DNA from: Subtercola boreus
GTDB lineage: Bacteria > Actinomycetota > Actinomycetes > Actinomycetales > Microbacteriaceae
Assembly (NCBI RefSeq): GCF_006716115.1
Contig: NZ_VFOO01000001.1
Span: 3,720,001-3,784,000 of the forward strand
Length of the DNA: 64,000 nt
Direction of reading: 5' to 3'
Both the position numbers and the translations under genes were made by a program. The notes under the pieces are model-generated. The model was given only the letters and a program-made list of their open reading frames with translations, did no database searches and had not been told where the DNA came from. Shown here in pieces: positions 41,076-60,895 of the stretch. Position 1 is the stretch's first letter, and each line of letters begins with the position of its first letter.

Positions 41076-41867
41076 TCAGTTGCCGCGGTAGGGCGAGAAG
41101 TCGGGCGGGCGCTTCTCGTTGAACGCGGTGATGCCCTCGAGGGCCTCGGGGGAGTCGCCGAAGAGGCGGAGGCTCGAGTACGCCATCTGCCCGATTCCGG
41201 CGAAGTGCTCGGTGTCGGTGTTGAACGACTGCTTCAGTACCTTCAGCGAGGTGGGGGAGAGGTTCAGGATCTCGTCGGCCCACTGCCGCACCTCGGCCTT
41301 CAGCTGGTCGGGTGCGACGACCTTGTTGATGAGGCCCCAGTTCTCGGCCTGCTCCGCGGTGTACTTGCGGCAGAGGAACCAGATCTCGCGAGCCCGCTTC
41401 TCGCCGATGATGCGGGCCATGTAGCCGGTGCCGAATCCGGCGTCGAAGGATCCCACGCGGGGCCCGTTCTGGCCGAAGATGGCGTTGTCGCTGGCGATCG
41501 TCAGGTCGCAGAGCATGTGCAGCACGTGGCCGCCGCCGATGGCGAACCCGTTCACCGCCGCAATCACGGGCTTCGGAACGTCGCGGATCACCCGGTGCAG
41601 GGATTCGACCTCGAACAAGCCCGACTCCGAGGGGCCGTAGTCGCCGGTCTCGGCCCGCTGCTTCTGGTCGCCGCCGGTGCAGAACGCCTTCTCTCCGGCG
41701 CCCGTCAGAGTGATGGCTCCGACGTCGTCGCTGCCCCAGGCGAGCTTGAAAGCGTGGATGAGTTCATCCACGGTGCGAGCCCGGAACGAGTTGTACCGTT
41801 CGGGTCGGTTGATGGTGATCGTGGCGAGGCCGTTGTCGACCTCGTAGAGAACGTCGGTGAATTCCAT
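41076..41867 (-). CDS. BadI-like 2-ketocyclohexanecarboxyl-CoA hydrolase (crotonase fold, ring cleavage)
   Basis: 263 aa; BadI of Rhodopseudomonas is about 260. The sequence follows BadI/MenB rather than ordinary hydratases: YEVDNGLATITINRPERYNSF, FCTGGDQ (about res. 61-67), IRDVPKPVIAAVNGFAIGGG, then VGSFDAGFGTGYMARIIGEKRA and the adjacent WFLCRKYTAEQAENWGL. BadI opens a 2-oxocyclohexane-1-carboxyl-CoA ring to pimelyl-CoA by a reverse Dieckmann reaction. MenB (dihydroxynaphthoyl-CoA synthase) is the alternative, but there are no men genes, and BadH/BadK relatives are adjacent. Last gene of the operon from 48903. Confidence 0.8.
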   Translation of the reverse strand: MEFTDVLYEVDNGLATITINRPERYNSFRARTVDELIHAFKLAWGSDDVGAITLTGAGEKAFCTGGDQKQRAETGDYGPSESGLFEVESLHRVIRDVPKPVIAAVNGFAIGGGHVLHMLCDLTIASDNAIFGQNGPRVGSFDAGFGTGYMARIIGEKRAREIWFLCRKYTAEQAENWGLINKVVAPDQLKAEVRQWADEILNLSPTSLKVLKQSFNTDTEHFAGIGQMAYSSLRLFGDSPEALEGITAFNEKRPPDFSPYRGN

Positions 41868-41949
41868 GTTCGCGGTGTCCTTTCGGGAGAGGGGCAGGTG
41901 GGGTGTAGTGAGGTGGGTGGGGCGGATGCCCGGATGGCGGCGTCGCGGT

Positions 41950-42753
41950 TCAGGCGAAGTCGGGGCGGCGCTTCTCCACGAAGGCGGCGATGCCCTCCCG
42001 GCCTTCGCCGTCTGTGAACAGCTTCGCGATCTCCGAGCGCTCGGAGGCGTTGCCTTCGGCCAGTGGCAGGTCGAAGGCAGCATCCACCGTCCGGACGACA
42101 GCTGCCTGGGCGGGTGCGGATGCCCGGGTGAGCGTCTTCGCGAGTGTGAGGGCCTCGGCCAGAGCCTGGCCCGGCTCGACGAGACGGTCGACGAGGCCGA
42201 TGGCATGGGCATCCGGAGCAGTGACCTGCCGCCCGGTGAGCATGATGTCGAGCGCCCGGCCGCGACCGACGAGGCGGGGCAGGCGCTGTGTTCCGCCGGC
42301 GCCGGGAATCAGCCCGAGTTTGACTTCGGGCAGGCCGAACTGCGCGTCGCCGCCGGCCACGCGCAGGGTGCAGGCGAGGCTGAGCTCGAGTCCGCCGCCG
42401 AGCGCGACGCCCTCGATCGCCGCGATCGCCAGCAGCGGTGCGCCGGCGAGGCGGTCGACGACGGCCCGGAGGCGGTCGCCGTACGCTTCGAAGCCCTCGA
42501 AGTCGATGGAAGCCATGAGCTTGATGTCGGCGCCCGCCGCGAAGAAGCCCGGGATCGACGAGGAGATGACGATGACCTTGGCGGGCGCCCCCGCGTCGCC
42601 GGGAGCCGGGTCGAGTGCAGCGTCGAGCGCGGCGTCGAGCCCTTCGATGATCGCGGTTCCGAGGGCATTGGCGGGCGCGCTGTGCAGGTCGACCTGCAGG
42701 ATGCCCGGGACCGCCCACTCCCAGCTGACCGCCTGTGTCGTGGTGTCTGTCAT
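41950..42753 (-). CDS. Enoyl-CoA hydratase, BadK-like
   Basis: 267 aa crotonase. The oxyanion-hole Gly/Ala are in FFAAGADIKLM (about res. 70-80) and ALGGGLELSLAC (about 115-126). Both catalytic glutamates of a true hydratase are present, in GGGLELSLA and GLPEVKLGLIPGAGGTQRL. In the cyclohexanecarboxylate pathway BadK hydrates cyclohex-1-ene-1-carboxyl-CoA before BadH oxidation, and this gene sits directly between BadI- and BadH-like genes. A plain beta-oxidation role is also possible. Confidence 0.85.
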   Translation of the reverse strand: MTDTTTQAVSWEWAVPGILQVDLHSAPANALGTAIIEGLDAALDAALDPAPGDAGAPAKVIVISSSIPGFFAAGADIKLMASIDFEGFEAYGDRLRAVVDRLAGAPLLAIAAIEGVALGGGLELSLACTLRVAGGDAQFGLPEVKLGLIPGAGGTQRLPRLVGRGRALDIMLTGRQVTAPDAHAIGLVDRLVEPGQALAEALTLAKTLTRASAPAQAAVVRTVDAAFDLPLAEGNASERSEIAKLFTDGEGREGIAAFVEKRRPDFA

Positions 42754-42767
42754 GGTCTGCTTCCCCT

Positions 42768-43526
42768 CTACGCCATCGTCAGGCCGCCGCTGACGGACAG
42801 CGTCTGGCCGGTGATGTAACCGGTGGCGTCGGAGGCGAAGAACACGACGGCTGCCGCGATGTCGCTCGGCTGGCCGAGCCGGCGCATCGGAACGGCGCGG
42901 GTCATGCCCGAGATGACCTTCTCGGCGTCGGCGCCCGACTGGTCGGCGAACTTCCGCAGCGCCGGGGTGTCGGTCGGACCCGGGCAGACCGTGTTCGCGG
43001 TGACGCCGCTCGTGGCGACCTCACGCGCGAGCGTCTTCGTGAAGGCGATGGTGCCGCCCTTCGCCCCCGAGTAGACGGCTTCGAGCGACGACCCGACCCG
43101 GCCCGCGTCGGAGCCGATGTTGATCACACGCCCCCAGCCCCGTTCGATCATGCCCGGTACGACGGCGTGCGTGACGCGCAGCTGGCCCTTGAAGTTGAGG
43201 TCGATGATCTTGTCCCAGAAATCCTCTGTGGTGTCGACGAAGTTCATGAAGTCGTCCCAGCCCGCGCAGTTCACGACGACCTCCACGGGGCCGAGCGCAT
43301 CGGTGACGGCGGTGACCGCGGCGGCCACGGATGCGCTGTCGGTGACGTTCAGCGACACCGGCACGGCCTCGCCGCCGGCCGCGGAGATCTCGTCGGCGAC
43401 GCCGGTGGCAGCCTCGACGTTCAGGTCGGCGACGGCGACGCGGAAGCCCGCCTCACCGAGTGCCAGGGCGATGCCCTTGCCGATTCCCGAGGCCCCGCCT
43501 GTGACGAACGCGACTCTGTTGCTCAT
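42768..43526 (-). CDS. BadH-like 2-hydroxyacyl-ring-CoA dehydrogenase (SDR)
   Basis: 252 aa from the ATG at 43526, chosen because GGAG lies eight bases upstream; an in-frame ATG four codons earlier has none. Classical SDR: TGGASGIGKG (about res. 8-17), NCAGWDDFMNF (about 86-96), SDAGRVGSSLEAVYSGAKGG with catalytic Tyr/Lys, and PGPTDTPAL. The AGWD segment, the VGSS-EAVY context and the end SVSGGLTMA closely resemble BadH, which oxidises 2-hydroxycyclohexanecarboxyl-CoA to the 2-keto ester cleaved by BadI. Confidence 0.85.
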   Translation of the reverse strand: MSNRVAFVTGGASGIGKGIALALGEAGFRVAVADLNVEAATGVADEISAAGGEAVPVSLNVTDSASVAAAVTAVTDALGPVEVVVNCAGWDDFMNFVDTTEDFWDKIIDLNFKGQLRVTHAVVPGMIERGWGRVINIGSDAGRVGSSLEAVYSGAKGGTIAFTKTLAREVATSGVTANTVCPGPTDTPALRKFADQSGADAEKVISGMTRAVPMRRLGQPSDIAAAVVFFASDATGYITGQTLSVSGGLTMA

Positions 43527-43598
43527 TCTGATCTCCATTGATGTGTGGTGCGGGTGGGCGGTGCGGATGGTGCGATTGTGCGGCGGTGCGGTGGTGAC

Positions 43599-44534
43599 TC
43601 AGTGGTCGACGAGCGTGCCCGTCCAGTCGACCGGCCCGGCGAGGATCGAGTGGCTGGTGAGCTTCCGCCCGAGCGTACTCTGCGCCTCCCTGGCCGCAGC
43701 GATCACCAGGTCGAGGTCGAGCCCGGTGTCGACCCCCATCTCCTCGAACATGCTGACCAGGTCTTCGGTGGCGATGTTTCCGGTCGAACCGGCCGGTACC
43801 GGGCATCCACCGAGCTCGCCAAAGCTCGACTCGAAACTCTCGCAGCCCGCTTCGAGGGCGGCGTAGGCGTTGGTGAGGCCCTGGCCACGGGTGTTGTGGA
43901 AGTGCGCGGTGAGTTCGACGCCCGGCAGCCGTTCGAAGGCCGCCCCGAAGAAGTCGGAGACGTACGCGGGGTTCGCCATGCCGGTCGTGTCGCCGAAGCC
44001 GATCTCGGTGGCGCCCATCTCGGCGAAGCGCTCGGCGAGGCCCAGCACGCGGTCGAGCGGGATCTTTCCTTCGTACGGGCACCCGAACGACGTGGCGATC
44101 ACAGCGTCGAGCTTGAGCCCGGCATCCAGGATGCGCGTCGCCATCGCCTTGTCGTCGGCCATCGTCTGTTCGACGGCCCTGTTGATGTTCTTCAGGTTGT
44201 GCGTCTCCGAGGCACTGACGAAGATCGACGCCTCGTCGAAGTACTCACGAACGGCCAGGGCGTTGTCGAGGCCCCTGCTGTTCGGAATCAGCACCATGCG
44301 CGACACTGTCGACGGCAGGTGGATGCCCTTCAGCACCTCCACGCCGTCGGAGAGCTGCGGAATGACGTCGGGCCGCACGAAGCTGGCGACCTCGATGCGG
44401 GTGAAGCCGGCGCGGCCGAGCGATTCGATGAGCCGGATCTTGTCGGCGGTGGCGATCACCTCCGGCTCGTTCTGGAAGCCGTCGCGGGGGCCGACCTCGC
44501 GGATGACAACGCTGCTGGGTCTCCGACTGCTCAT
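43599..44534 (-). CDS. Hydroxymethylglutaryl-CoA lyase-like enzyme
   Basis: 311 aa, DRE-TIM metallolyase. Signature EVGPRDGFQNEPEVI (res. 13-27; true HMG-CoA lyases have GLQNE), FVSASETHNLKNIN (about 130-143), GDTTGMANP, metal ligands HFHNTRGQGLTNA and the flexible-loop Cys in GGCPVPAGSTGN. It cleaves a 3-hydroxy-3-methyl-acyl-CoA to acetyl-CoA and a 3-oxo acid. Inside a ring-cleavage island it would remove a tertiary-alcohol carbon, suggesting a methyl-branched substrate (inference). Ordinary leucine catabolism cannot be excluded, although no methylcrotonyl-CoA carboxylase genes are nearby. Confidence 0.88.
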   Translation of the reverse strand: MSSRRPSSVVIREVGPRDGFQNEPEVIATADKIRLIESLGRAGFTRIEVASFVRPDVIPQLSDGVEVLKGIHLPSTVSRMVLIPNSRGLDNALAVREYFDEASIFVSASETHNLKNINRAVEQTMADDKAMATRILDAGLKLDAVIATSFGCPYEGKIPLDRVLGLAERFAEMGATEIGFGDTTGMANPAYVSDFFGAAFERLPGVELTAHFHNTRGQGLTNAYAALEAGCESFESSFGELGGCPVPAGSTGNIATEDLVSMFEEMGVDTGLDLDLVIAAAREAQSTLGRKLTSHSILAGPVDWTGTLVDH

Positions 44535-44559
44535 ACTTCTGCCTCCTGTAGTCCACTGT

Positions 44560-45795
44560 TCATGCTGTCATCGCCGCCAGCCGGCCCGCGGCGCGTTCGA
44601 GCGACTCCCGGTGTTCGGGTGCCGCGACCTCGATCAGCCGACGGGCGCGTTCGGCGAACCCGCAACCGCGGAGGTGCGCCGCACCGTGTTCGGTGACCAC
44701 CACGTCGACGTCGGTGCGGGAGGTCGTGACGGTGTCGACCGTGGGAACGATGGTCGAGTGCGACCCGCCGGTGGAGCGCACGGCGATGATCGACCGGGCA
44801 CCGGAGGCGCTTGCGGCCCGCGAGAAGTCGGACTGGCCGCCCACGGCACCGATGTAGGTTCCGCGCCGCATCTCGGCGTTCACCTGCCCGCTCAGGTCGA
44901 CTTCGATGGCCGAGTTGATGGAGACGAGCGACCGGAGGTGCGAGAGCGTGCGGGCGCTGTGGGTGTAACTGGCCGCACAGAACCGCACGGGCAGGTCGTC
45001 GAGCCGCTCGTAGAAGGCCGTGCTGCCGAGAGCTGCACCGGTCACGATGACCCCGGTGTCGATCTCCTTGCGGGCACCCGTGATGACGCCGCGGTCGACC
45101 AGGTCGGCGATGCCGTCGGTGATGAGGCCCGAGTGCACGCCCAACTCGCGGTGCCCGCGGAGGTCGGCGAGTACGGCGGCGGGCAGTGCTCCGACGCCGA
45201 GCTGGATGGTGTCGCCGTCCTCGATGAGGCCGGCGATGTGGCCGGCGATCGCGAGGTCGACGGGTGTGGAGACGGTCAGCGGCGCCTCGAGCAGGGGCCG
45301 GTCCGTGCGGATCGACGCGGCGAACCGCGACACGTGGATGCCTGCGCTACCGCTGGTGACGGGCATCCGTTCGTTGATCTCGGCGATGATCACGCGCGTG
45401 TGCTCGATCGCGTCCGCCGCGTAGTCGACGCCCACCCCGAGAGAGCAGATGCCGTTCTCGTCGGGGGGAGACACCTGCACGAGCGCGACGTCGCCGGGCA
45501 GTTCGCCGCGCGCGAACAGGTCGGGCAGGCCCGAGTAGTTCGCCGGAACCACTTCGAGCCGGCCCTCCTTGCTGAGGTGCCGCAGGTCGCCGAGCGCTCC
45601 GTAGGAGACGATGCTCAGTTCGGGGGGAGGGTTGCGGGTGATCCGTTTGTCGAAGGTGAGGCCGACGAAGGCGGTGACCGGGCCGATGTCGTGCAGCTGG
45701 TCGAGCAGAGCGTGCACGAGCGGCGTCGGTTCGGCGCTCGTCTGGCTCCACCAGATCTCGTCGCCCGCGTGGATCAGGCCGGTCAGGTCGATCAT
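44560..45795 (-). CDS. Acetyl-CoA hydrolase/CoA-transferase family I protein
   Basis: 411 aa, family of 4-hydroxybutyrate CoA-transferase and succinyl-CoA:acetate CoA-transferase. Substrate motifs: VALVQVSPPDENGICSLGVG (about res. 105-124), LQGVG-like QLGVGALPAAV (about 197-207), the catalytic Glu in SINSAIEVDLSGQVNAE (about 305-321) and GGQSDFSRAA. It would swap CoA between a pathway acid and an acyl-CoA donor, a cheap way to activate an acid or free CoA, next to the lyase that yields a free 3-oxo acid. ATG overlaps the thiolase stop (ATGA). Confidence 0.87.
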   Translation of the reverse strand: MIDLTGLIHAGDEIWWSQTSAEPTPLVHALLDQLHDIGPVTAFVGLTFDKRITRNPPPELSIVSYGALGDLRHLSKEGRLEVVPANYSGLPDLFARGELPGDVALVQVSPPDENGICSLGVGVDYAADAIEHTRVIIAEINERMPVTSGSAGIHVSRFAASIRTDRPLLEAPLTVSTPVDLAIAGHIAGLIEDGDTIQLGVGALPAAVLADLRGHRELGVHSGLITDGIADLVDRGVITGARKEIDTGVIVTGAALGSTAFYERLDDLPVRFCAASYTHSARTLSHLRSLVSINSAIEVDLSGQVNAEMRRGTYIGAVGGQSDFSRAASASGARSIIAVRSTGGSHSTIVPTVDTVTTSRTDVDVVVTEHGAAHLRGCGFAERARRLIEVAAPEHRESLERAAGRLAAMTA

Positions 45796-46988
45796 GAGTC
45801 GAGCCGCTGGATGAGCGTGGCCGTGCCGAGGCCGCCGCCGCAGCACATCGTGACGAGACCCAGTTCGACGTCGCGCCGTTCCATCTCGGCGAGGATCGTC
45901 GCGATCAGGCGCGAGCCGGTCGCCCCCACCGGGTGGCCGAGGGCGATGGCGCCGCCGTTCACGTTCACGCGGCTCATGTCGGGCTGCAGCTCCTGCTGCC
46001 AGGCGAGCACGACGGAGCCGAACGCCTCGTTGATCTCGATCAGGTCGATGTCGTCGATCGTGAGGCCGTTGCGTTCGAGGAGCTTGCGGGTGGCCGGGAT
46101 CGGCCCGGTGAGCATGATGATCGGGTCGACGCCGACGGTGGTCTGGTCGAGGATGCGCGCGCGCACCTTCAGCCCGTGCTTCTCGGAGGCGGCCCGCGAG
46201 GCGAGCAGCACGCCGGCCGCGCCATCCGTCAGTGGAGACGACGTGCCCGCCGTTACCCGCCCGTTCTCGGAGCGGAACACCGTCTTCAGGCCGCCGAGCG
46301 TCTCGAGCGAGGTTCCGGGGCGCACACTCTGGTCGCTGGTGCGGAGCTGCCCGTCGAGCTCGAGCGGCACCATTTCCGCGTCGAACCGGCCGGCTGCGAT
46401 CGCCTCGGTCGCGAGGGCGTGCGAACGGACGGCGAACTCGTCCATCTCCTCGCGACTGATGTTCCAGCGTTCGGCGATGAGTTCGGCGCTCTCGCCCTGC
46501 GGCACCATGTCGTAGAGGTCGAGCAGTTCGGCCGGCCACGCCTTGCCGTAGAGCTCCTCGATCTTGCCGACCGAGTTCATCGGCACGTGCGTCATGTTCT
46601 CGACACCGCCCGCGATGACGAGTTCGTGCATCCCCGAGGCCACGAAAGCGGCGCCCATGGCGACGGATGTCTGTGCCGACCCGCAGCGCCGGTCGACCAC
46701 CACGGCGGGCACTTCGGGCGGGTAGCCGGCCTGCAGCCAGGCGTTCCGGCCGACGTTCCGCGACTGCTCGCCGAACTGTGCCGTGCACCCGATCACCAGG
46801 TCTTCGATGTCGTCTGGGGCCAAGCCGCTGCGGCTGAGCAGATCGGTGTACACCGCGCCGAGCATGACGTTCGGGTGCGTGCCCCGGAACCAGCCCTTCT
46901 CGGGGTTCGCCCGCCCCATCGGCGTGCGAACGGCCTCGGCGATGAGCGCTTCGCGGCCGGAGGAGATGAAGGGATTGTCGAAGACCAT
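45792..46988 (-). CDS. Acyl-CoA acetyltransferase (thiolase)
   Basis: 398 aa. Catalytic nucleophile Cys in VVDRRCGSAQTS (about res. 101), conserved INEAFGSVV, second His in GGAIALGHPVGATGSR (about 350-365) and C-terminal proton-shuttle Cys in MCCGGGLGTA (about 380-389). The pattern is degradative thiolase, cleaving 3-oxoacyl-CoA to acetyl-CoA and a shortened acyl-CoA. It fits the end of each beta-oxidation round after ring opening. Overlaps the SDR gene upstream and CoA-transferase gene downstream. Confidence 0.93.
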   Translation of the reverse strand: MVFDNPFISSGREALIAEAVRTPMGRANPEKGWFRGTHPNVMLGAVYTDLLSRSGLAPDDIEDLVIGCTAQFGEQSRNVGRNAWLQAGYPPEVPAVVVDRRCGSAQTSVAMGAAFVASGMHELVIAGGVENMTHVPMNSVGKIEELYGKAWPAELLDLYDMVPQGESAELIAERWNISREEMDEFAVRSHALATEAIAAGRFDAEMVPLELDGQLRTSDQSVRPGTSLETLGGLKTVFRSENGRVTAGTSSPLTDGAAGVLLASRAASEKHGLKVRARILDQTTVGVDPIIMLTGPIPATRKLLERNGLTIDDIDLIEINEAFGSVVLAWQQELQPDMSRVNVNGGAIALGHPVGATGSRLIATILAEMERRDVELGLVTMCCGGGLGTATLIQRLDS

Positions 46989-48903: not shown

Positions 48904-48939
48904 AATGACTCCGTTTCGCTTACTTGGACCTACCTTATC

Positions 48940-48953
48940 AAAGGACTGACCAT
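48940..48953. promoter_or_regulatory. Operator O1 (TGGTCAGTCC palindrome)
   Basis: Minus strand AATGGTCAGTCCTTT (complement around 48940-48954), in the 50-bp gap between two acyl-CoA dehydrogenase genes and upstream of the operon 48903 to 41076. It matches O2 and O3 in the core TGGTCAGWCC, with the right half-site weaker (CCTTT). Confidence 0.6.
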
Positions 48954-50009: not shown

Positions 50010-50017
50010 GGTGTTCC

Positions 50018-51967
50018 CTACTTCGTCTTCTGGTCGCCGACAGCGCGGCTGATCTCGTTCACGGCATCCGGGTTCTCGGCCCCTGACAGGTCGCCCTGGG
50101 GGAGCCCGAGCGCGGCTGCGCGCACGGCGCGGCGCATGATCTTCTGCGACCGGGTCTTCGGCAGTTGGCTGACGCGGCGCACCAGCGAGGGGGCGAACGG
50201 TTTGCCGAGCTCACTGGCCACCAGCGCGCGGAGTTCCTCGGAGACATCCTCGCTCGACGACGCCCGCGGAACCCAGAATGCCCACACGGTCTCACCCTTC
50301 GTGGAATCGGGCACGCCCACGGCGGCCGCCTCGACGACGGCGGGGTGCGTGATGAGCACGGACTCGACCTCGGCCGGGGCGAGACGTTTGCCGGCCACGT
50401 TCATCACATCGTCGGAGCGACCGAGGATGAACCACTGGTCGTCCTCCACGAGAGCGAAGTCGCCGTGGTGCCACATGCCGGGGAACGTGGTCCAGTACGC
50501 CTCGAGGTACCGGTCGTCGTCCTTCCAGACGCCGCGGGTCATCGCCGGCCACGGCTGCCGGCAGACGAGCTCGCCCACCTCGCCGCGCACCGAGTCTCCG
50601 TTCGCGTCGACCACATCCACGTCCATGCCGAGCGACGGCCCGCCGAGCGAGCAGCTGCGGATGGTCTCGACGGGGTAGGGCGCGAGGAAGGAGCCGCCGA
50701 CCTCTGTGCCGCCCGAGAAGTTGATGATCGGAACCCGGTCGCCGAAGACGTCGACGGCCAGCCATTCGTAGGCGCTCGGGTCCCAGGGCTCGCCGGTCGA
50801 GCCGAGCACATGCACGCTCGACAGGTCGTAGTCGCGGAAGGTCGTCGAACCCGAAGCACGCAACGTGCGGATCAGTGTGGGCGACACCCCCAGCATCGAG
50901 ATGCGATGGTTCTGGACGAGCGACCAGAGCCGGTCGATGTCGGGCACATCGGGCGAGCCCTCGTAGAGTACGAGCGTCGCGCCGTTCGCGTGGGTGCCGA
51001 AGATCGAGAGGGGCCCCATGATCCAGCCCATGTCGGTGATCCAGCAGAAGACGCCGTCGGCATTCACGTCGAACGAATAGGCGACCTCACTGGCCGTCTT
51101 CACGAGGAATCCCGCGTGCGTGTGCACGGCGCCCTTCGGCTTGCCGGTGGTGCCGGAGGTGTAGGCCAGCAGCAGCGTCTCGGTCGCCGGCAGCGCCACC
51201 GGTTCGGTGAGGGGCGTGGCGGCCAGGAGTGACTCCCAGGCCACGTCGGTTCCGGATGCAGCGCTGCCACCGCCGACGTTGGTGACGACCACTACGCGCT
51301 CGACGGTCGGGCACGAGGCGACGGCCTCGTCGAGCAGCGCTTTCATCTCCACCGTGCGGTGTCGGCGAACCGTTCCGTCGGCCACGATCACAGCGACCGC
51401 TCCGGCGTCCCGGATGCGCGCCGCGATCGCCGACGGGGCGAAACCGGAGAACAGCGGCACGATGATCGCGCCGAGCGAGGCGATGGCGTAGCAGGCGACC
51501 ACGGCCTCGGGGATCATCGGCAGGAACAGCGCGACGGTGTCCCCGCGCTTCACGCCGAGCTCCCGGAGCCCGCCCGCCACCGCCGCAGCGCGTTCGGCTA
51601 GTTCGGCGTAAGTCAGGTTCGTGACGGTTCCGTCTTCGGCCTCGTGCGAGACGGCGATCCTTCCCGCGCCCACGTCGTTCTGCCAGCGCGTGAGGCACGC
51701 ATCGACGATGTTGATCGTCGACCCGGTGAACCATTCGGGCCGCTCGATGCCGGCCGAGATGTCGATGACGCTCTCGTAGGGCGTGCGGAACGGGATTCCC
51801 AGGTCGGTCACGACCGCATCCCAGTACCAGCCCACGTCGGCCACCGACCGCGCGCGGAGTTCGGGCAGCGTCCCGATGCCGTGCGACCGGCCCAGGCGGG
51901 TGACGTTCGCATTCTCGATGTAGTCGGCGGTGGGCAGCCATTCGTAGACGGCCGGGTCGTGGCTCAT
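50018..51967 (-). CDS. Acyl-CoA synthetase, acetyl-CoA-synthetase-like
   Basis: 649 aa, ANL superfamily with an acetyl-CoA-synthetase-type N-terminal extension (IERPEWFTGSTINIVDACLTRW in part). P-loop YTSGTTGKPKGAVHTHAGF (about res. 265-283), ATP-binding LGSTGEPWDPSAY and FSGGTEVGGS, hinge Asp in WHHGDFA..GRSDDVMNVAGKR, and catalytic Lys in LPKTRSQKIMRR near the C-terminus. It activates a carboxylate with ATP and CoA. As the only ligase of the island it is the probable entry enzyme. ATG overlaps the ACAD 3 stop. Confidence 0.9.
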   Translation of the reverse strand: MSHDPAVYEWLPTADYIENANVTRLGRSHGIGTLPELRARSVADVGWYWDAVVTDLGIPFRTPYESVIDISAGIERPEWFTGSTINIVDACLTRWQNDVGAGRIAVSHEAEDGTVTNLTYAELAERAAAVAGGLRELGVKRGDTVALFLPMIPEAVVACYAIASLGAIIVPLFSGFAPSAIAARIRDAGAVAVIVADGTVRRHRTVEMKALLDEAVASCPTVERVVVVTNVGGGSAASGTDVAWESLLAATPLTEPVALPATETLLLAYTSGTTGKPKGAVHTHAGFLVKTASEVAYSFDVNADGVFCWITDMGWIMGPLSIFGTHANGATLVLYEGSPDVPDIDRLWSLVQNHRISMLGVSPTLIRTLRASGSTTFRDYDLSSVHVLGSTGEPWDPSAYEWLAVDVFGDRVPIINFSGGTEVGGSFLAPYPVETIRSCSLGGPSLGMDVDVVDANGDSVRGEVGELVCRQPWPAMTRGVWKDDDRYLEAYWTTFPGMWHHGDFALVEDDQWFILGRSDDVMNVAGKRLAPAEVESVLITHPAVVEAAAVGVPDSTKGETVWAFWVPRASSSEDVSEELRALVASELGKPFAPSLVRRVSQLPKTRSQKIMRRAVRAAALGLPQGDLSGAENPDAVNEISRAVGDQKTK

Positions 51968-53145
51968 TTCGCGCTCCGGGGCATGCTGAGCATCCGTTCG
52001 GCCACGATGTTGCGCTGGATGAACGTCGAGCCGCCTGCGATGGCGGTGCCGCGGGACTGGTAGGCGAGGCGCACCCACCGTGCCGTCTCGGGGTCGTCGG
52101 ACTCCAGCGCGAACTGCCCGCCGAGCGGCGTCATCGAGAGCCGGAAGTCGGCGAGATCCTCCACCAGAGGGCAGAAGAAGAGTTTGCCGATGGAGGTCAC
52201 CGGGCCGGGGGGCCCGTCATCCGTCGCCAGCGACACCACCCGCTGCCCGATCAGGTAGTGCGTGAGCGCGCGCCCGTAGAGATCGGCGACCGTGTCGCGC
52301 ACCCGGGCATCCGCACCGAGCGGACGACCGGCACTGTCTGTCGCCTCGCGTACGGCGGTGACGATGTCGCGCACGGCGCGCTGGGTGTTGACCCGGCCGG
52401 TGGCGATCGCGACGCGTTCGTAGGCGAGCGTGCCCATGGCGACGGCCCAGCCGCCGTTCACCTCGCCGACCACGAGCTCATCGGGGATGAAGACGCTGTC
52501 GAGGAAGACCTCGTTGAACTCGGCCTCGCCCAGCATGTGGCGAAGCGGCCGGATGGTCACGCCCTCGGTGTCGAGGGGGAGGATGAAGAACGTGATGCCC
52601 TTGTGCCGCGGTTCGGTTCCCGTGCGGGCGAGCAGAATGGCGAACGAGGCGACGTGGGCGCGGCTCGTCCAGATCTTCTGGCCGGTGATCGACCAGCCGC
52701 CGTCGACTTTCGTGGCCTTCGTGCGGAGCGACGCGAGGTCGGAGCCGGCCTCGGGCTCGGAGAACAGCTGGCACCAGATCTCGTCGCCGGTCAGGATCGG
52801 GCGGAGGAACCGCTCCTTCTGCGCGTCGGTGCCGTAGTCGATGATGGTCGGGCCGGAGAAGTCCTCGCCGATCGTGTTCAGTCGTTCGGGGGCGCCGGCG
52901 AGGTCGAGTTCTTCGGCGAAGATGGCGCGGATGTTCGGGCCCTCGCCGCCCCCGCCGTACTCCTTCGGCCACGACAGTCCGGCGTAGCCGCCGTCGAACA
53001 GGGCCTTCTGCCACTGGGTCCAGAACGGGACCTTGGCCACCAGGTCGGCGGGCTCCGGCCAGGGCAGAGTGGGCAGCGTCGCCTCGATGAAGGCTCGGGC
53101 TTCGGTGCGGAATCGTGCTTCTTCGGGCGAATCCGACAGGTTCAT
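51964..53145 (-). CDS. Acyl-CoA dehydrogenase 3 (FadE-like)
   Basis: 393 aa. LSWPKEYGGGGEGPNIRAIFAEEL in the N-terminal domain, FAD/substrate segment CQLFSEPEAGSDLASLRTKA (about res. 125-144), WSITGQKIWTSRAHVA and a C-terminal helical bundle ending GSTFIQRNIVAERMLSMPR, the usual end of large FadE proteins. First gene of the minus operon 53145 to 48954 (ACAD, ligase, short ACAD), with operator O2 in its divergent promoter. Confidence 0.92.
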   Translation of the reverse strand: MNLSDSPEEARFRTEARAFIEATLPTLPWPEPADLVAKVPFWTQWQKALFDGGYAGLSWPKEYGGGGEGPNIRAIFAEELDLAGAPERLNTIGEDFSGPTIIDYGTDAQKERFLRPILTGDEIWCQLFSEPEAGSDLASLRTKATKVDGGWSITGQKIWTSRAHVASFAILLARTGTEPRHKGITFFILPLDTEGVTIRPLRHMLGEAEFNEVFLDSVFIPDELVVGEVNGGWAVAMGTLAYERVAIATGRVNTQRAVRDIVTAVREATDSAGRPLGADARVRDTVADLYGRALTHYLIGQRVVSLATDDGPPGPVTSIGKLFFCPLVEDLADFRLSMTPLGGQFALESDDPETARWVRLAYQSRGTAIAGGSTFIQRNIVAERMLSMPRSAK

Positions 53146-53180
53146 AGATCATCCTCACGTCGTTCAGGTCCGATGTTACT

Positions 53181-53195
53181 ATTGGTCAGACCAAA
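53181..53195. promoter_or_regulatory. Operator O2 (perfect TTGGTC-A-GACCAA palindrome)
   Basis: TTGGTCAGACCAA (53182-53194) is a perfect odd-length palindrome in the 73-bp divergent region between ACAD 3 and the MaoC-like pair. A -10-like TACTAT (53177-53182) for the rightward genes overlaps it. This is the best of three copies. Core shape TGGT-N3-ACCA is typical of FCD-type GntR regulators (FadR/PdhR/LldR). Confidence 0.7.
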
Positions 53196-53218
53196 AGATC
53201 CAGTTCTGGAAGGCAGCG

Positions 53219-53635
53219 ATGACCGGGATTCCTGTAGGCGGCGTCGTCGACACCGTCGAGTTCACCGTGGAGGCGGGCAAGATCCGCGAGTTCGCCCGCG
53301 CGACCTTCACCGAAGACCCCCGGCACGCGGCCGGTGAACTAGCCACGGCGACCCACTCGGTGGTGACGGGCCACTACCGCGACCAGCGCGGATTCGTGGC
53401 GCGCCTCGGCCTCGCCATCGAGCGCATCGTCGTAGGATCGGTCTCGTGGGAGTACGAACGCCCCCTCATCGCGGGCGACCGACTCGTGGCCACGCGCCGT
53501 GTCGAGGCCGACACCGTGCGCGAGGGCCGCACCGGCGCGATGCGTTTCGTGACTCTCGCCACGTCGTTCACGGATGCTGCGGGCGAGACCGCGCTCGTGC
53601 AGCGCGAGGTGCTCATCGAGAGGCCAGCGTCGTGA
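53219..53635 (+). CDS. MaoC-like hydratase subunit (FAS1-like dehydratase N-terminal domain)
   Basis: 138 aa from the ATG at 53219 (GGAAGG upstream). Single hot-dog domain of the MaoC N-terminal type: VEFTVEAGKIREFARAT (about res. 10-26), ARLGLAIERIVVGSVSWEYERPLIAGDRL (about 62-90, in parts) and a final beta sheet. It lacks the hydratase-2 motif, which is in the next gene. Two-gene MaoC systems form heterodimers that hydrate bulky enoyl-CoA, as with ChsH1/ChsH2 in cholesterol side-chain degradation. Confidence 0.82.
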   Translation: MTGIPVGGVVDTVEFTVEAGKIREFARATFTEDPRHAAGELATATHSVVTGHYRDQRGFVARLGLAIERIVVGSVSWEYERPLIAGDRLVATRRVEADTVREGRTGAMRFVTLATSFTDAAGETALVQREVLIERPAS

Positions 53636-54021
53636 CGGCCGGCACTCCGCTGGTGGCTCCGGATGCCCGGCGGATCGGCCCCGTGACGAGAACCGACATC
53701 GTGCGCTTCGCCGGTGCGGGCGGGGACTTCAATCCGCTCCACCACGATCCTGACGCCGCTCGCGCCGCCGGCTTCGACGATGTCATTGCCATGGGGCAGT
53801 TCCAGGCCGGCCTGCTGGCCGGTTACCTCACCGACTGGGTGGGGGTCGAGAATCTGCGCCGCCTGGAGGTGCGCTTCCGTGCGCCGGTGCGCCTCGGCGA
53901 CGTGCTCGAGCTCTCGGCGACCGTCGGCGAGGCCGCCGACGGCCTGACGGCCGTCTCGCTCGTGGCGTCGGTCGGCGGCGTCGTCGTCGTCAGCGCCGAG
54001 GCATCCGTCGAGGCCCGCTGA
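53632..54021 (+). CDS. MaoC-family (R)-specific enoyl-CoA hydratase subunit
   Basis: 129 aa, GTG start overlapping the previous stop (GTGA). The hydratase-2 catalytic motif is intact: AGAGGDFNPLHHDPDAARAAGF (Asp/His in DFNPLHHD, about res. 31-38), followed by IAMGQFQAGLLAGYL. Adjacent hot-dog partner lacks that motif, so the two should make one heteromeric hydratase with a large acyl pocket. Transcribed rightward from O2. Confidence 0.88.
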   Translation: MTAGTPLVAPDARRIGPVTRTDIVRFAGAGGDFNPLHHDPDAARAAGFDDVIAMGQFQAGLLAGYLTDWVGVENLRRLEVRFRAPVRLGDVLELSATVGEAADGLTAVSLVASVGGVVVVSAEASVEAR

Positions 54022-54043
54022 CCCGTTCGAAACGAGCGGCGCG

Positions 54044-54829
54044 TCAGCGCAGCGACCAGACCGGGTCGCGCTTCTCGCGGAAGGCCGTGACGCCCTCTTT
54101 CATGTCGTCGGTGCCGAAGGCATCGGCGAGCCTGCGCTGCAGAACGTCGAGCGCCTCGCCGAGCGGCAGGTCGCGGGTCGCATCGATCGCCTCCTTGCCG
54201 AGCCGCATCAACAGCGGCGATTTCGCAGCGATGCGGCGGGCCCACGCCAGCACCGCCGCGTCGAAGTCGGCATCGGGTACGACGCGGTTCACGAACCCGA
54301 AATCCCTGCCCTCCGCGGCCGTCACCAGATCGCCGACCATCATCAGCTCGTTGGCCTTCATGCGGTCGACGTTGCGGTAGATCAGCGCCGAGATCATGAA
54401 CGGGAAGACGCCGACGTTGATCTCCGGGCATCCGAACCTCGTCGACTCCTTCGCGATCACCAGGTCGCAGGCGAGCGCCAGGCCGAAAGCGCCCGCGAGC
54501 ACGTCGCCGTTCGCCGCGCAGACCACCGGCTTGCCGAGCGCACCGAGCAGCCGGTAGAGGCGCGGGAACCGGCCGAGCCCCTCGAACTTCTCGTCGGGGG
54601 AGCGGTCGTCGGCGAACGCCTTCAGGTCGCCGCCGGCCGAGAAGATCCGGTCGTGCGACGACGTGATCACCACCACCCGCACGGTGTCGTCGTCGCGGGC
54701 GGCCTCGAGCGCGGCGAGCAGCTGGTCCATCAGCTCGTCGCTCAGCGCGTTGCGCGTGGCAGGACTGTCGAGGGTCACGACGGCGATGCCCGGATCGGGC
54801 CGGTCGGTTCGCACGAGCGGGATGGTCAT
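54044..54829 (-). CDS. Enoyl-CoA hydratase/isomerase family protein
   Basis: 261 aa crotonase. Oxyanion-hole segments IFSAGGDLKAFADD (about res. 62-75) and DVLAGAFGLALACDLVIA (about 105-122). The first catalytic Glu position is occupied by Ala/Phe and the second region reads GCPEINVGVFPFMISALI, keeping one Glu, so isomerase or hydrolase chemistry is as likely as hydration. Transcribed leftward with the SDR and ACAD 4, probably from O3. Confidence 0.85.
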   Translation of the reverse strand: MTIPLVRTDRPDPGIAVVTLDSPATRNALSDELMDQLLAALEAARDDDTVRVVVITSSHDRIFSAGGDLKAFADDRSPDEKFEGLGRFPRLYRLLGALGKPVVCAANGDVLAGAFGLALACDLVIAKESTRFGCPEINVGVFPFMISALIYRNVDRMKANELMMVGDLVTAAEGRDFGFVNRVVPDADFDAAVLAWARRIAAKSPLLMRLGKEAIDATRDLPLGEALDVLQRRLADAFGTDDMKEGVTAFREKRDPVWSLR

Positions 54830-54880
54830 GGTGCCTCCTTGGTCATCGATTCTCTGGCGTCTCCGGTTCTGCGACGGGCG

Positions 54881-55681
54881 TCATGCTGCCGAGATGCCGC
54901 CGTTCACACTGATCGCCTGGCCGGTCAGCCGCCGCGCCGCCGGCCCGGCCAGGAACGCCACCAGGTCGCCGAGGTCGTCGGCATCCGGCACCCCGAGGTG
55001 CGCCGCCCGGGCGGCGCTCGCGAACAGTTTCGCACTGAACCCGTCTTCGGTGATGCGTGCCGTCGACGCCGTGCCGTGCACGAGCGACGGCGTCAGCACG
55101 TTCGCGCGGATCCCGTTGCGCTTACCCTCGATCGCGATCGTGCGGGTGAACATGATGATCGCCGCCTTGCAGGCCCCGATGATGGTCTCGCCGGGCGTGG
55201 CGGTCTTGCCGGCGTCCGACGCCACCGTGATGATCACGCCGCCGCGACGTTCTGCCATGTGGGGCATCACCTCGCTGACCATCTGCATGGCCGGCAGCAG
55301 CATCTGCTGCAGGATGCCGCCGATCGACGCGGTCGGGATGTCGCGGAAGAGCTCCGGCCGATTCTCGGCCACCGTCGAGACGACGAGGATGTCGACCCCG
55401 CCGAGCAGTTGCTCTGCCTCGTCGGTGATGCGGGCGGCTTCGGAGGCCGATGTCGCGTCGCCCTGCACGAAGTGGACCGTCGCGCCCGTCGTCCGGGCGA
55501 GTTCCGCGCGGGCAGCCTCGCCGCGCGCGGCGTTGCGGGCGACGATCACGATGCGCCGCACCCCGGCGAGCCCGAGCTTCCGGGCCGAGGCGAACCCGAT
55601 GCCGGCCGAGCCGCCGACCACGAGCGCTCCGCTGTCAGGGAGGGACTTCGGTTCGGGCAGACCCGATCCGTCCCCGCTCAC
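54881..55681 (-). CDS. SDR-fold protein lacking the catalytic tyrosine (A)
   Basis: 266 aa from the GTG overlapping the ACAD 4 stop (GTGA). NAD-binding loop GGSAGIGFASA is kept (about res. 22-32), and the Ser of the catalytic set is in TVASDAGK. In the alignment register of BadH (SDAARV..AVYAACK) this protein reads SDAGKT..TIIGACK: Tyr is replaced by Ile while Lys stays. C-terminus RLTGQAISVNGGISAA matches its paralogue at 56933. It may bind nucleotide or acyl-CoA without normal dehydrogenase activity, or use other residues. Confidence 0.82.
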   Translation of the reverse strand: MSGDGSGLPEPKSLPDSGALVVGGSAGIGFASARKLGLAGVRRIVIVARNAARGEAARAELARTTGATVHFVQGDATSASEAARITDEAEQLLGGVDILVVSTVAENRPELFRDIPTASIGGILQQMLLPAMQMVSEVMPHMAERRGGVIITVASDAGKTATPGETIIGACKAAIIMFTRTIAIEGKRNGIRANVLTPSLVHGTASTARITEDGFSAKLFASAARAAHLGVPDADDLGDLVAFLAGPAARRLTGQAISVNGGISAA

Positions 55682-56832
55682 AGCGACACCGTCTTCGTCG
55701 CGAGGATCTCCTTCGAGATGATGTTCTTCTGGATCTCGGCCGTGCCGTCGGCCACCAGGTAGGCCATCACATCGCGGAACCGCTGCTGCAGCGGGAACTC
55801 CGCCGAGTAGCCGAGGTTGCCGTGGATCTTCATCGACGCCTCGATCGCATCCTTCGCGACCACCGGCGCCCACCACTTGCTCATCGACGCGAGCGACGTG
55901 TGCGACCGGTTCTCCTGCCGCAGCCAGAGGGCGCGGTAGCAGACCCACCGCGCGCCCTCGATGTAGGTGGCATGCTCGGCGAGCGGGAAGCTCACCCCCT
56001 GGTACTCGGAGATCGGCTTGCCGAACGTCGTGCGGATCAGCGCGTATGCCGCCGCCTCCTCGAGGCTCTGCTCGGCAGCCCCGAGGCACATCAGGCCGAT
56101 CGCGGCACGCGAGAAGTCGAAGTGGTTCATCGCGACCTGGAACCCGCGGCCCTCCTCCCCGATGAGGTGGCTCTCGGGCACGAAGACGTCGTCGAGGTGG
56201 ATCGACCCCCAGCCGAGCGGCAGGCAGCCCATGCCCCGCATGTGGTGCACCGACACCCCCGCCGTGCTCATGTCGACGACGAAGCAGCTGACTCCGGATG
56301 ATCGTGCCGTGCCTTCTTCGCGAGCGTAGACGAGCGACGCGCTAGCCGTCATCGCCCAGCTGATCGCTGTCTTCTCGCCGTTCAGCAGCCACCCGCCCGG
56401 CACCCGTTTCGCCGTCGTGCGGAGGGCGCTGGCATCCGAACCGGAACCCGGCTCGGTGAGCGCGATCGCGAGGTTCTCTTCGCCGGCGATCACCGGCGGC
56501 AGGTAGCGCTCGCGCACCTCCTCGGTGCCGTGCAGCAGTTGCGCCCCCACGAGGCCGACCTGGATCGGTGCCGAGGCGAGGTTGACGTCACCGTAGGCGA
56601 GGGTCTCCGAGGCGATGCCGAGCAGCACGGGGTCGTCTTCGCCCGTTCCGCCGAACTTCTCGGGCAGGCCGATGCCGAGCACACCCAGGTCACCGATCTT
56701 CTTCAGCAGCGCGAACGGGAACTCGGTGCTCGCCGAGCGGGCCGTGTAGCCGGGCAGCAGCTCCTGCCGGGAGAACTCGGCGAGGGTCCTGCGGAAGCTC
56801 TCGTGCTCATCCGAGAAACTGAAGTCGAGCAT
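55678..56832 (-). CDS. Acyl-CoA dehydrogenase 4
   Basis: 384 aa from the ATG at 56832; upstream in-frame codons are Arg-rich and run toward the operator. Complete ACAD: MLDFSFSDEHESFRRTLAEF, LGIGLPEKFGGTGEDDPVL, FAD segment AIALTEPGSGSDASALRTT (about res. 118-136), LNGEKTAISWAM, and C-terminal KIHGNLGYSAEFPLQQRFRD then DGTAEIQKNIISKEIL. A candidate for the first dehydrogenation of the ring acid (AliB-like role), inferred from its place beside Bad-like genes. Probably transcribed from O3. Confidence 0.9.
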   Translation of the reverse strand: MLDFSFSDEHESFRRTLAEFSRQELLPGYTARSASTEFPFALLKKIGDLGVLGIGLPEKFGGTGEDDPVLLGIASETLAYGDVNLASAPIQVGLVGAQLLHGTEEVRERYLPPVIAGEENLAIALTEPGSGSDASALRTTAKRVPGGWLLNGEKTAISWAMTASASLVYAREEGTARSSGVSCFVVDMSTAGVSVHHMRGMGCLPLGWGSIHLDDVFVPESHLIGEEGRGFQVAMNHFDFSRAAIGLMCLGAAEQSLEEAAAYALIRTTFGKPISEYQGVSFPLAEHATYIEGARWVCYRALWLRQENRSHTSLASMSKWWAPVVAKDAIEASMKIHGNLGYSAEFPLQQRFRDVMAYLVADGTAEIQKNIISKEILATKTVSL

Positions 56833-56906
56833 CCGGTACCTGTTCCATTCTGCGCGGCACCGTCGCGCGCGCACCTCGATCCTCTCATATTGGTAGAATC
56901 ATGCAA

Positions 56907-56920
56907 ATGGTCAGTCCAAT
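56907..56920. promoter_or_regulatory. Operator O3 (ATGGTCAGTCCAAT)
   Basis: Located in the divergent region between ACAD 4 and the second tyrosine-less SDR. A -10-like TAGAAT (56894-56899) puts the rightward start near 56906, so the operator would cover the first transcribed bases. AGGAGG (56922-56927) follows directly. Matches O1 over AATGGTCAGTCC and O2 over TTGGTCAG-CCAA with one or two changes. Confidence 0.65.
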
Positions 56921-56932
56921 AAGGAGGCGCCT

Positions 56933-57715
56933 GTGCCTGTTGTGCGTTCGTATGCCGATTCCGCCGTGGTCATTGCCGGGGCGTCGTCGGGGGTCGGTCT
57001 CGCCTCGGCACTGGCGTTCGTCGATGCGGGCGTCACGCGCCTCGCCCTGCTCTCCCGCTCTCCGGAGCGCGGCGAGGCCGCCCGCGAACGGGTGCAGGCC
57101 CGGAACCCCGCGGCGACCGTCGAGTTCATTCCGGTCGATGTGGATGATCTCGCGGCCGTCACACGCGCCGTGGCCCTGGCCCACCAGAAGCTCGGCGGCA
57201 TCGACGTTCTGGTCAGTTCGGTGACCTCGGCGTACCGGCCCGACCTGCTCTCGCGCATCGAGCCGTCGGACATCGCCGGGATCCTGACCGGCCAGGCGTT
57301 GCCGCCCATGTACCTCACCCGCACGGTGCTGCCGTACCTGAAGGAGCAGGGCGGCGGTTCGATCGTCCTGGTCGCCTCGGATGCTGCCAAGGTCGCCACC
57401 CCCGGAGAGTCGGTGCTCGGCGCCGCCATGGCTGCGATCGTGATGTTCTCGCGCACGGCTGCCATGGAGGCCAAGCGCGACGGCATCCGCATCAACGCCG
57501 TCACCCCGTCGCTGATCGCGGGCACGGCCACGGCCGCCCGGGTGCTGACCGACGGCTTCAGCAAGGCGCTCTTCGACAAGGCGGCGACGCTCGCGCACCT
57601 CGGTGTGGCCGAGGCGTCGGATCTCGCCGCCCTCATCGTCTTCCTCGGCGGCCCCGCCGCGGCGAAGATCACGGGCCAGGCGATCAGCGTGAACGGCGGC
57701 ATCTCGGCGGCCTGA
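56933..57715 (+). CDS. SDR-fold protein lacking catalytic tyrosine and lysine (B)
   Basis: 260 aa, GTG start with AGGAGG five bases upstream. Clear paralogue of 54881-55681 (same lengths through the active-site region and identical end GQAISVNGGISAA). Cofactor loop AGASSGVGLASA is present. Where classical SDRs have YxxxK this protein has LGAAM (SDAAKVATPGESVLGAAMAA region), so both Tyr and Lys are gone. Possibly a non-catalytic partner of copy A. Transcribed rightward from O3. Confidence 0.82.
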   Translation: MPVVRSYADSAVVIAGASSGVGLASALAFVDAGVTRLALLSRSPERGEAARERVQARNPAATVEFIPVDVDDLAAVTRAVALAHQKLGGIDVLVSSVTSAYRPDLLSRIEPSDIAGILTGQALPPMYLTRTVLPYLKEQGGGSIVLVASDAAKVATPGESVLGAAMAAIVMFSRTAAMEAKRDGIRINAVTPSLIAGTATAARVLTDGFSKALFDKAATLAHLGVAEASDLAALIVFLGGPAAAKITGQAISVNGGISAA

Positions 57716-60416: not shown

Positions 60417-60430
60417 GATATGGTCCCAGA

Positions 60431-60450
60431 AATTGTTTGGTCCAACAATT
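60431..60450. promoter_or_regulatory. Palindrome AATTGTT-TGGTCC-AACAATT upstream of the crotonase gene
   Basis: Seven-base arms separated by six bases, just after the marR stop and 15 bases before the crotonase ATG. AT-rich dyads of this length are typical MarR sites. It lies where it would cover the promoter of the leftward crotonase gene. The TGGTCC centre is only superficially like operators O1-O3. Confidence 0.5.
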
Positions 60451-60875: not shown

Positions 60876-60876
60876 G

Positions 60877-60895
60877 GTGTTAGTGTATCAACACT
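60877..60895. promoter_or_regulatory. MarR autoregulatory dyad
   Basis: AGTGT-ATCA-ACACT (60882-60895) is nested with GTGTT...AACAC (60877-60894). It includes the -10 TACACT of marR on the minus strand and lies in the 53-bp divergent region shared with the alpha/beta hydrolase gene. A regulator bound here would act on both promoters. Confidence 0.5.

Follow-up and report, generated by a model that had tools for sequence, protein, structure and literature searches.

Positions 41076-57715 of a 64,000-nucleotide stretch of the genome of the soil actinobacterium Subtercola boreus carry an island of coenzyme A (CoA) ester metabolism genes that very probably encodes a hydrolytic, CoA-dependent ring opening. 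The stretch (hereafter the window; contig NZ_VFOO01000001.1, positions 3,720,001 to 3,784,000, or G000:C1:3720001-3784000) belongs to a genome of 4.21 Mb in 2 contigs; L012, L013 and L014 denote further stretches of that genome, with L013 starting at G000:C1:3784001. A preliminary description of the window had proposed ring opening of the BadK-BadH-BadI type for a cyclohexane-type or terpenoid acid, and the gene families support this as likely. With a good deal less assurance, the substrate is probably a cyclohexane or cyclohexene carboxylic acid branched at position 4, most likely a C7 acid of the p-menthane series (perillic acid, oleuropeic acid or their dihydro forms). Hydrolytic cleavage of the bad, mrc and lrc sort is already known; what the sequences point to here is a separate hydrolase clade together with a 3-hydroxy-3-methylglutaryl-CoA (HMG-CoA) lyase module in actinobacteria.

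Family names were assigned by NCBIfam and Pfam profile scans with curated cut-offs and, for some proteins, by sequence matches in the Protein Data Bank (PDB). Gene calls based on GC content at third codon positions contained shadow open reading frames (ORFs), which were corrected by hand or replaced by tblastn. The scans confirmed all families first named from the letters alone, namely relatives of BadI, BadK and BadH, an acyl-CoA synthetase, four acyl-CoA dehydrogenases, a MaoC pair, a thiolase, a lyase and a CoA-transferase, and every one of these genes is present as an intact ORF. Family matches far exceed chance, as for the HMG-CoA lyase (NF004283, 321.6 bits, above the cut-off of 246). 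A compact run on the minus strand reads, in order, acad3, acs, acad2, acad1, sdrA, thl, coat, hmgl, badH, badK and badI; neighbouring genes overlap by 1-4 bases at acad3/acs, acad1/sdrA, sdrA/thl and thl/coat. Its badI end comprises the BadI-like ring hydrolase of 263 amino acids (badI, 41076-41867), a BadK-like enoyl-CoA hydratase (badK, 41950-42753, named by profile scan and gene order), a BadH-like short-chain dehydrogenase/reductase (SDR; badH, 42768-43538), the HMG-CoA lyase (hmgl, 43599-44534), a CoA-transferase of the acetyl-CoA hydrolase/transferase family (coat, 44560-45795, profile scans) and a thiolase (thl, 45792-46988; TIGR01930, 425 bits, cut-off 240.6). Of these, hmgl, coat and thl are consecutive neighbours.

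In the pathway that we propose from these families, a ligase would form the CoA ester of the ring acid and an AliB-like dehydrogenase would desaturate saturated rings. The BadK-like enzyme would hydrate the ring, the BadH-like enzyme would oxidise it, and the BadI-like hydrolase would open the resulting 2-oxo ring, yielding a 5-substituted pimelyl-CoA. A single round of beta-oxidation, using acyl-CoA dehydrogenases 2/3, the MaoC pair or a crotonase, an SDR and the thiolase, would give 3-substituted glutaryl-CoA, which would then be desaturated and hydrated to a tertiary alcohol. The HMG-CoA lyase would split this alcohol into acetyl-CoA and a 3-oxo acid; the CoA-transferase would reactivate the 3-oxo acid, and the thiolase would free the branch as a short acyl-CoA.

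A third hydrolase clade beside MenB and BadI

The suggestion that the genes follow BadI, BadK and BadH had been drawn from motifs, all of which are found in the sequence (FCTGGDQ, FDAGFGTGYMARIIGEKRA, NCAGWD, VSGGLTM and, in the BadK-like crotonase, two Glu residues that we take to be catalytic). Assignment of the hydrolase as a BadI equivalog did not hold, as it scores 338.3 bits on TIGR03210, for which the cut-off is 467.6. It is also under all MenB cut-offs (TIGR01929, 322.5 of 342.7 bits; NF005637, 349.6 of 380; NF006186, 243.6 of 378). The BadH-like SDR is under its own equivalog cut-off, with TIGR03206 as the best match of all models listed (307.2 of 431.2 bits). Ten relatives of the hydrolase were scanned likewise: nine are under the BadI cut-off, and the tenth, L023, is without a match in the reading frame scanned. 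Among the scanned relatives, L115 passes one MenB model (356 bits against 342.7) and L024 passes two.

A tree of 70 hydrolase proteins (96 were extracted and 26 thinned out as near-copies) was built by a quick method with support from the Shimodaira-Hasegawa-like approximate likelihood ratio test (SH-aLRT) only; its outgroup branches are very long, which leaves the root and sister relations unsure. In this tree the window hydrolase does not group with MenB or plain enoyl-CoA hydratases, the placement that the preliminary description had named as counting against it. It falls in a starred clade of 16 close relatives, outside the MenB clade and the BadI clade, while all nine proteins over the BadI cut-off share one other starred clade. 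Among the MenB-labelled rows, those checked against cut-offs were L024 and the genome's own MenB. Signature residues follow the same division: as a rule GDQKQR..E(T/S)GDYGPS in the hydrolase clade; GDQS or GDQG, as a rule YDGRG, and GSVDPG in BadI; and FCSGGDQ..R in MenB. Judged by profiles, tree and residues, the window hydrolase belongs to a third clade beside MenB and BadI.

A role of the BadI-like protein as a condensing enzyme of the MenB type or as a generic crotonase, in a cluster that serves another acyl-CoA pathway, is very improbable. Its slightly better score on the MenB model NF005637 than on BadI, and the resemblance of its GDQKQR stretch to the GDQ-K/R-x-R of MenB, are what such a role would have in its favour, set against scores under every MenB cut-off, a starred clade apart from both families, and BadH-like and BadK-like neighbours. 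The genome also has a separate, genuine MenB (L014:10606-11493; NF006186, 530.9 bits, cut-off 378). Four relatives carry a second copy, of the MenB clade, near badK and badH (L048:11042, L061:18491, L064:12881 and L066:18760), which is not in the window. For annotation, the gain is that these hydrolases score near the MenB and BadI models yet belong to neither.

HMG-CoA lyase and a proposed branched ring

Pimelyl-CoA from an unsubstituted ring undergoes beta-oxidation without HMG-CoA lyase. A ring substituted at C4 is opened to 5-substituted pimelyl-CoA and shortened to 3-substituted glutaryl-CoA, and the hydration product of the latter is a tertiary alcohol that is not oxidisable, because the branch sits on the beta carbon, and that needs cleavage by a lyase. 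HMG-CoA lyase releases the 3-oxo acid in free form, and a CoA-transferase and a thiolase can then take over. We propose a substrate branched at C4 because the genes for lyase, CoA-transferase and thiolase adjoin and an unsubstituted ring needs no lyase.

The earlier remark that the combination with HMG-CoA lyase matches no known pathway is to be amended: 4-substituted rings are expected to need a lyase step, and the same carbon route is proposed in a 2025 article on anaerobic limonene degradation (PMC12583861). In the available text of that article, the lrc operon of Syntrophobacteraceae LiM6, acting on perillyl-CoA, is assigned the same intermediates, with LrcC of the HMG-CoA-synthase superfamily and the CoA-transferase LrcI. 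The lrc system differs in coming from an anaerobe and in having an HMG-CoA-synthase-superfamily enzyme where the island has HMG-CoA lyase, and the two are likened here by enzymes and intermediates (PMC12583861). Our hypothesis had been formed independently beforehand, and the published route may be taken as support for it, not as proof.

The conservation of the lyase was followed from a named-genome scan with the BadI-like protein, in which the best 80 of 576 relatives are the basis of the counts out of 38 and 42 loci; the first 38 (73-96% identity) are called close loci, the other 42 have 58-73%, and many loci are short. The window's lyase is the only NF004283 match of its genome, and its best PDB match is 1ydo (259.5 bits). 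We searched 28 other genomes picked for carrying this BadI (24 from the genomes of the first 38 loci and 4 from a class sample), and an orthologue with 69-91% identity is present in 25. The matches in G552 and G721 lie at the same positions, so these two are probably a single genome and the count is then 24 of 27. A second type of lyase, at 32-44%, is also present in 19 of the 25, with nothing listed between 44% and 69%. The G604 copy lies in pieces at contig ends and the G548 copy has an in-frame TGA. Lyase and badI are on one contig in several genomes (G770, G721, G604, G547, G549 and G550). At the level of loci, 28 separate, hand-chosen loci and two wider stretches of L064 and L066 were checked. 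The lyase is in the fetched stretches of 7 of the 15 close loci among them and, at 42% identity or more, in none of the 13 loci with BadI at 72% or less, one of which (L113) has a 37% match.

A plain route of the bad-ali or chcpca type for unsubstituted cyclohexanecarboxylate or simple naphthenic acids, with the lyase there by coincidence for leucine or branched acids, is rather unlikely, although several facts speak for it. Bad-ali clusters are widespread according to the available text of PMC9795900, Rhodococcus aetherivorans BCP1 induces a similar gene set on cyclohexanecarboxylate (PMC5906575, available text), the window's own genome has a near-AliB dehydrogenase (L014:4495-5652), and the lyase is not in the fetched stretch of 8 of the 15 close loci. 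The established chemistry of pimelyl-CoA, the distinct lyase type in 25 of the 28 other BadI-bearing genomes searched and its absence at 42% or more from the 13 examined loci with more distant BadI argue instead for the branched ring.

Other points weigh against a branched ring and a dedicated lyase. Three of the 28 genomes have no lyase of the window type (G545, 36%; G546, 38%; G555, none). Williamsia limnetica is a carrier without this type. The eight close loci with no lyase in the fetched stretch are L048, L057, L061, L062, L068, L069, L072 and L074; some of these stretches are cut off too soon to show it, and for L057, L068 and L069 the lyase lies elsewhere in the genome. In L048, L057 and L062, badH adjoins the next gene of the pathway, with no lyase between, and L070 has the lyase with no CoA-transferase match. 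As the only HMG-CoA lyase of its genome, 43599-44534 might also serve leucine breakdown. The genome counts of the lyase cover BadI-bearing genomes only. The acyl-CoA synthetase of the island is AcsA-like, not AliA-like.

Among described systems, the mrc genes of Castellaniella defragrans 65Phen resemble the island in BadK/H/I-like cleavage of the perillyl-CoA ring, a MaoC-like pair, a 2,4-dienoyl reductase and, in the wider mrc island, a thiolase and an acetyl-CoA hydrolase/transferase; they differ in belonging to a betaproteobacterium, and the available main text names no HMG-CoA lyase, its sole lyase being citrate lyase (PMC4109377). The chcpca cluster of R. aetherivorans BCP1 shares an actinobacterial host, badI, badH, aliA, aliB and a hydratase gene. 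Its cyclohexanecarboxylate-induced set, in the available text, is badI, badH, aliA, glutaryl-CoA dehydrogenase, aliB, hydratase and two tetR genes; compared by gene lists, it differs in that the eight listed ORFs include no HMG-CoA lyase, CoA-transferase or MaoC pair (PMC5906575). The bad-ali genes of Rhodopseudomonas palustris and Aromatoleum sp. CIB provide the same hydration, oxidation and hydrolytic cleavage of cyclohexenecarboxyl-CoA (PMC9795900, available text), whereas BadI and BadH of the island are under the equivalog cut-offs and its BadI is outside the BadI clade. Steroid ring C/D catabolism of the EchA20/IpdAB type had been considered for the FadE/ChsH-like pairs and was set aside on the family of the CoA-transferase; the full steroid gene set was not searched for.

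CYP108-like P450s and a possible terpenoid link

A CYP108-like cytochrome P450 (at least 59% identity) occurs in the fetched stretches of 11 of the 38 close loci, the query's own locus counted, versus 0 of the 42 others (Fisher p 1e-4, uncorrected for relatedness and unequal stretch lengths). The query protein matches P450tol (644 bits) and P450terp (423 bits) in the PDB. In L050, L065 and L066 (Protofrankia and two Amycolatopsis), genes for the CYP108-like protein, ferredoxin, ferredoxin reductase, alcohol dehydrogenase (ADH) and aldehyde dehydrogenase (ALDH) stand together near badI. According to the available part of a review, CYP108N12 and CYP108N14 oxidise limonene and p-cymene, and CYP108N14 also alpha-terpineol, at the C7 methyl (PMC11279926).

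Two points count against a terpenoid substrate. In the available text of PMC7037279, a CYP108 can act on polycyclic aromatics too, and no CYP108 was identified in the window's genome, where PF00067 finds two P450s and the one examined is nearest to CYP125MRCA. The terpene link is borrowed from relatives because of this missing CYP108, and for the same reason the growth substrate of the window's organism might be an acid, aldehyde or alcohol. Its genome has an ALDH gene at L013:17385-18848 and an ADH gene from L013:18875, the latter 53-65% identical to ADHs in 10 of the 11 CYP108 loci (L041, L042, L043, L049-L051, L053, L054, L065 and L066).

The same enzymes could serve an alkylated petroleum ring acid (a 4-alkylcyclohexanecarboxylate), a different source that we regard as distinctly unlikely. 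The lyase logic suits any C4 branch, one carrier is named Kribbia dieselivorans, and the lack of an identified CYP108 in the window's genome would fit as well, but the P450, ferredoxin, reductase, ADH and ALDH groups near badI in the Protofrankia and Amycolatopsis loci are as expected for oxidation of a terpene at C7.

Distribution among actinobacteria

Among the best 80 of the 576 relatives, the nearest BadI-like proteins are from Subtercola metagenome-assembled genomes (MAGs), at 96% and 90% identity. The 38 close loci include Subtercola, Mycolicibacterium, Mycobacterium, Frankia, Protofrankia, Pseudonocardia, Amycolatopsis, Saccharopolyspora, Williamsia, Kribbella, Kribbia, Citricoccus and Solirubrobacterales MAGs. 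Close relatives in Mycolicibacterium, Frankia, Pseudonocardia, Amycolatopsis and further genera have many of the island's genes in common with it. Operon order is partly kept in other genera, with several of the 38 loci sharing stretches of it. In Amycolatopsis sp. NBRC 101858, the set extends over ~45 kb (L137-L139), from a dehydratase/reductase-type module, described below, to CYP108, ferredoxin, ferredoxin reductase, ADH and ALDH.

The BadI-like protein was found in 18 of 295 other genomes of a class sample (E <=1e-95), four of them at 83-84%; the sample lists 13 genomes from the protein's own taxonomic family, and none of them has it. In an order sample (E <=1e-60), 5 of 148 other genomes have it, all of one genus and at 56-59%. 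The wider stretches fetched for these genomes (L007-L011) also contain BadH-like and AliB-like genes, and the lyase is in none of the three loci examined (L007, L009 and L010). An early phylum sample (E 1e-85) gave 11 of 395 other genomes, 4 at 62-67% and 7 at 53-55%, five of the latter proteins being MenB-labelled rows in the hydrolase tree. In the open-access literature searched, we recognised no account of an actinobacterial gene set of this kind.

Two genomes of one genus have BadI-like genes with one in-frame TGA each (L153 and L155, from G750 and G789). Six records titled Bifidobacterium breve contain BadI-like genes (L086, L091, L093, L098, L108 and L110), which is unexpected for Bifidobacterium, and the Acidobacteria-titled L104 has a BadI identical to that of G157, of the window's phylum; these record titles look unreliable.

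An operator-like palindrome and a candidate regulator

The palindrome TGGTCAGACCA between acad3 and maoCa (53183-53193) and the site TGGTCAGTCCA, with one mismatch, between acad4 and sdrC (56908-56918) were located by motif search and are the only sites at one mismatch or less in 64 kb. They stand in the island's two divergent promoter regions, and 0.07 occurrences of the exact motif would be expected in the window by chance. The palindrome presumably resembles a FadR operator. Of the 38 close loci, 18 have a site at one mismatch or less in the 160 bp before badI, versus 1.9% of 2000 windows drawn at random from these loci. When the 14 loci L039-L047, L049 and L051-L054 are left out as one mycobacterial group, the count is 4 of 24. 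Outside the window, two one-mismatch sites (L014:9645 and 9730) closely precede an FCD-type GntR gene (L014:9775-10542), and many of the close loci contain relatives of this gene at 59-77%. Its product is a putative regulator that may control the set through TGGTCNGACCA.

Against such control, the stretch directly before the window's badI contains no operator at three mismatches or less, and the Subtercola loci L037 and L038 reach 4 and 3 mismatches at best, which would be expected if badI ends an operon there. Further one-mismatch sites occur at L013:6263, 14606 and 16256 and at L012:1745, so a single one-mismatch site is weak evidence.

A dehydratase/reductase-type module beyond the window

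Related genes resume ~13-36 kb past the end of the island, in L013 and L014. At L013:6584-10216 (G000:C1:3790584-3794216), ~29 kb from badI, stand hgdX1 and hgdX2 (Pfam HGD-D) and an activase gene (L013:9167-10216; TIGR00241, 234.1 bits, above the cut-off of 125.4). Benzoyl-CoA reductase of the bcr or bzd kind was rejected for L013:6584-9141, which is under the respective cut-offs (BcrC, 165.1 of 421.2 bits; BcrB, 76.4 of 486.6; BzdN, 124.4 of 453.8). PDB matches of the large subunit favour 2-hydroxyisocaproyl-CoA dehydratase (77.9 bits versus 44.3 and 34.6), those of the activase are about equal for dehydratases and benzoyl-CoA reductases, and three cysteines in hgdX2 have aligned cysteine counterparts in the alpha subunit of 2-hydroxyisocaproyl-CoA dehydratase. 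Benzoyl-CoA reductases of the bcr and bzd kind have two different ASKHA subunits; one activase gene was found per module in the fetched stretches, which do not cover whole genomes.

L013 also carries a PaaX-type regulator, ligases, a quinone-oxidoreductase-like gene, the ALDH and ADH genes given above, and an SDR with relatives (69-82%) near badI in many close loci. L014 carries a CaiB-type CoA-transferase, a ligase and others, and its near-AliB dehydrogenase scores 545.2 of 575.4 bits, under the cut-off. Relatives of hgdX2 are in 7 of 24 other BadI-bearing genomes, one as a 111-residue fragment; the module is not a fixed part of the set, since the other 17 lack hgdX2. In the class sample, hgdX2 is in 2 of 295 genomes and both carry the BadI-like protein, at 83% and 60% (Fisher p 0.0035, uncorrected for relatedness). 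Eight modules were fetched (G543, G544, G547, G549, G550, G554, G628 and G677, that of G554 over two contigs): all eight fetched stretches include an SDR of the 56933-57715 type (50% identity or more), seven a ligB1-type ligase and six a PaaX-type gene. Among SDRs of this type at 40% identity or more, the catalytic Tyr is absent from 13 of 13 distinct copies and the Lys from 12 of 13. SDR-family proteins without the catalytic Tyr in the window's own genome are those at 54881-55681 and 56933-57715 of the window and at L014:2794-3573.

These actinobacteria are generally regarded as aerobes. It is a tentative proposal that the hgdX/activase enzyme works in the same pathway as the island in such presumed aerobes. 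The enzyme could strip the tertiary alpha-hydroxyl of 2-hydroxyisobutyryl-CoA, from terpineol-type branches, to give methacrylyl-CoA; alternatively, it could reduce an aryl-CoA, such as p-cumoyl-CoA, for entry into the BadK-BadH-BadI steps.

Other genes of the island and its flanks

The minus-strand run continues past thl with a FabG-like SDR that may be a 3-hydroxyacyl-CoA dehydrogenase (sdrA, 46988-47737, profile scan), acyl-CoA dehydrogenase 1 (acad1, 47737-48903, profile scan), the short acyl-CoA dehydrogenase 2 (acad2, 48954-50009; best IpdE2, 119 of 450 bits, with PimD weaker), the AMP-forming, AcsA-like acyl-CoA synthetase (acs, 50018-51967, profile scans) and acyl-CoA dehydrogenase 3 (acad3, 51964-53145; best PimC, 198 of 624 bits). 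Divergent from acad3, on the plus strand, are the two MaoC-like hydratase subunits found by Pfam scan: a (maoCa, 53219-53635, FAS1_DH_region) and b (~53650-54021, its start uncertain). Then follow, on the minus strand, an enoyl-CoA hydratase/isomerase (ech1, 54044-54829, profile scan), an SDR that lacks the catalytic Tyr by alignment (sdrB, 54881-55681) and acyl-CoA dehydrogenase 4 (acad4, 55678-56832), which is best on AliB and under its cut-off (TIGR03207, 316.7 versus 575.35 bits). A divergent SDR on the plus strand (sdrC, 56933-57715) lacks both the catalytic Tyr and Lys by alignment, and tblastn places its relatives with the dehydratase/reductase-type module.

The flank holds an FAD-dependent monooxygenase (57752-58906, minus strand, profile scans), a TetR-family regulator (59003-59593, plus strand, Pfam scan) and an enoyl-CoA hydratase (ech2, 59601-60416, minus strand, profile scan and tblastn), whose type occurs in one or two copies between badI and badK in several relatives. 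A separate group upstream of the island (26650-34004) encodes a phosphotriesterase-family protein, two amidohydrolases and a transporter of the major facilitator superfamily (MFS). Positions 60001-64000 have a GC content of 0.623 versus ~0.69 beside the island, with short ORFs that we take to resemble nuclease-like and PIN-like proteins, and are possibly an inserted element.

Implications

If the proposed pathway is true, the island would supply candidate genes for the breakdown of p-menthane-type rings after C7 oxidation, branched carbon included, in actinobacteria such as mycobacteria, Frankia and Amycolatopsis. One lyase, one hydrolase and one regulator-operator pair would thereby become named candidates. 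The linked module raises the question of whether anaerobe-associated chemistry is used in these actinobacteria.

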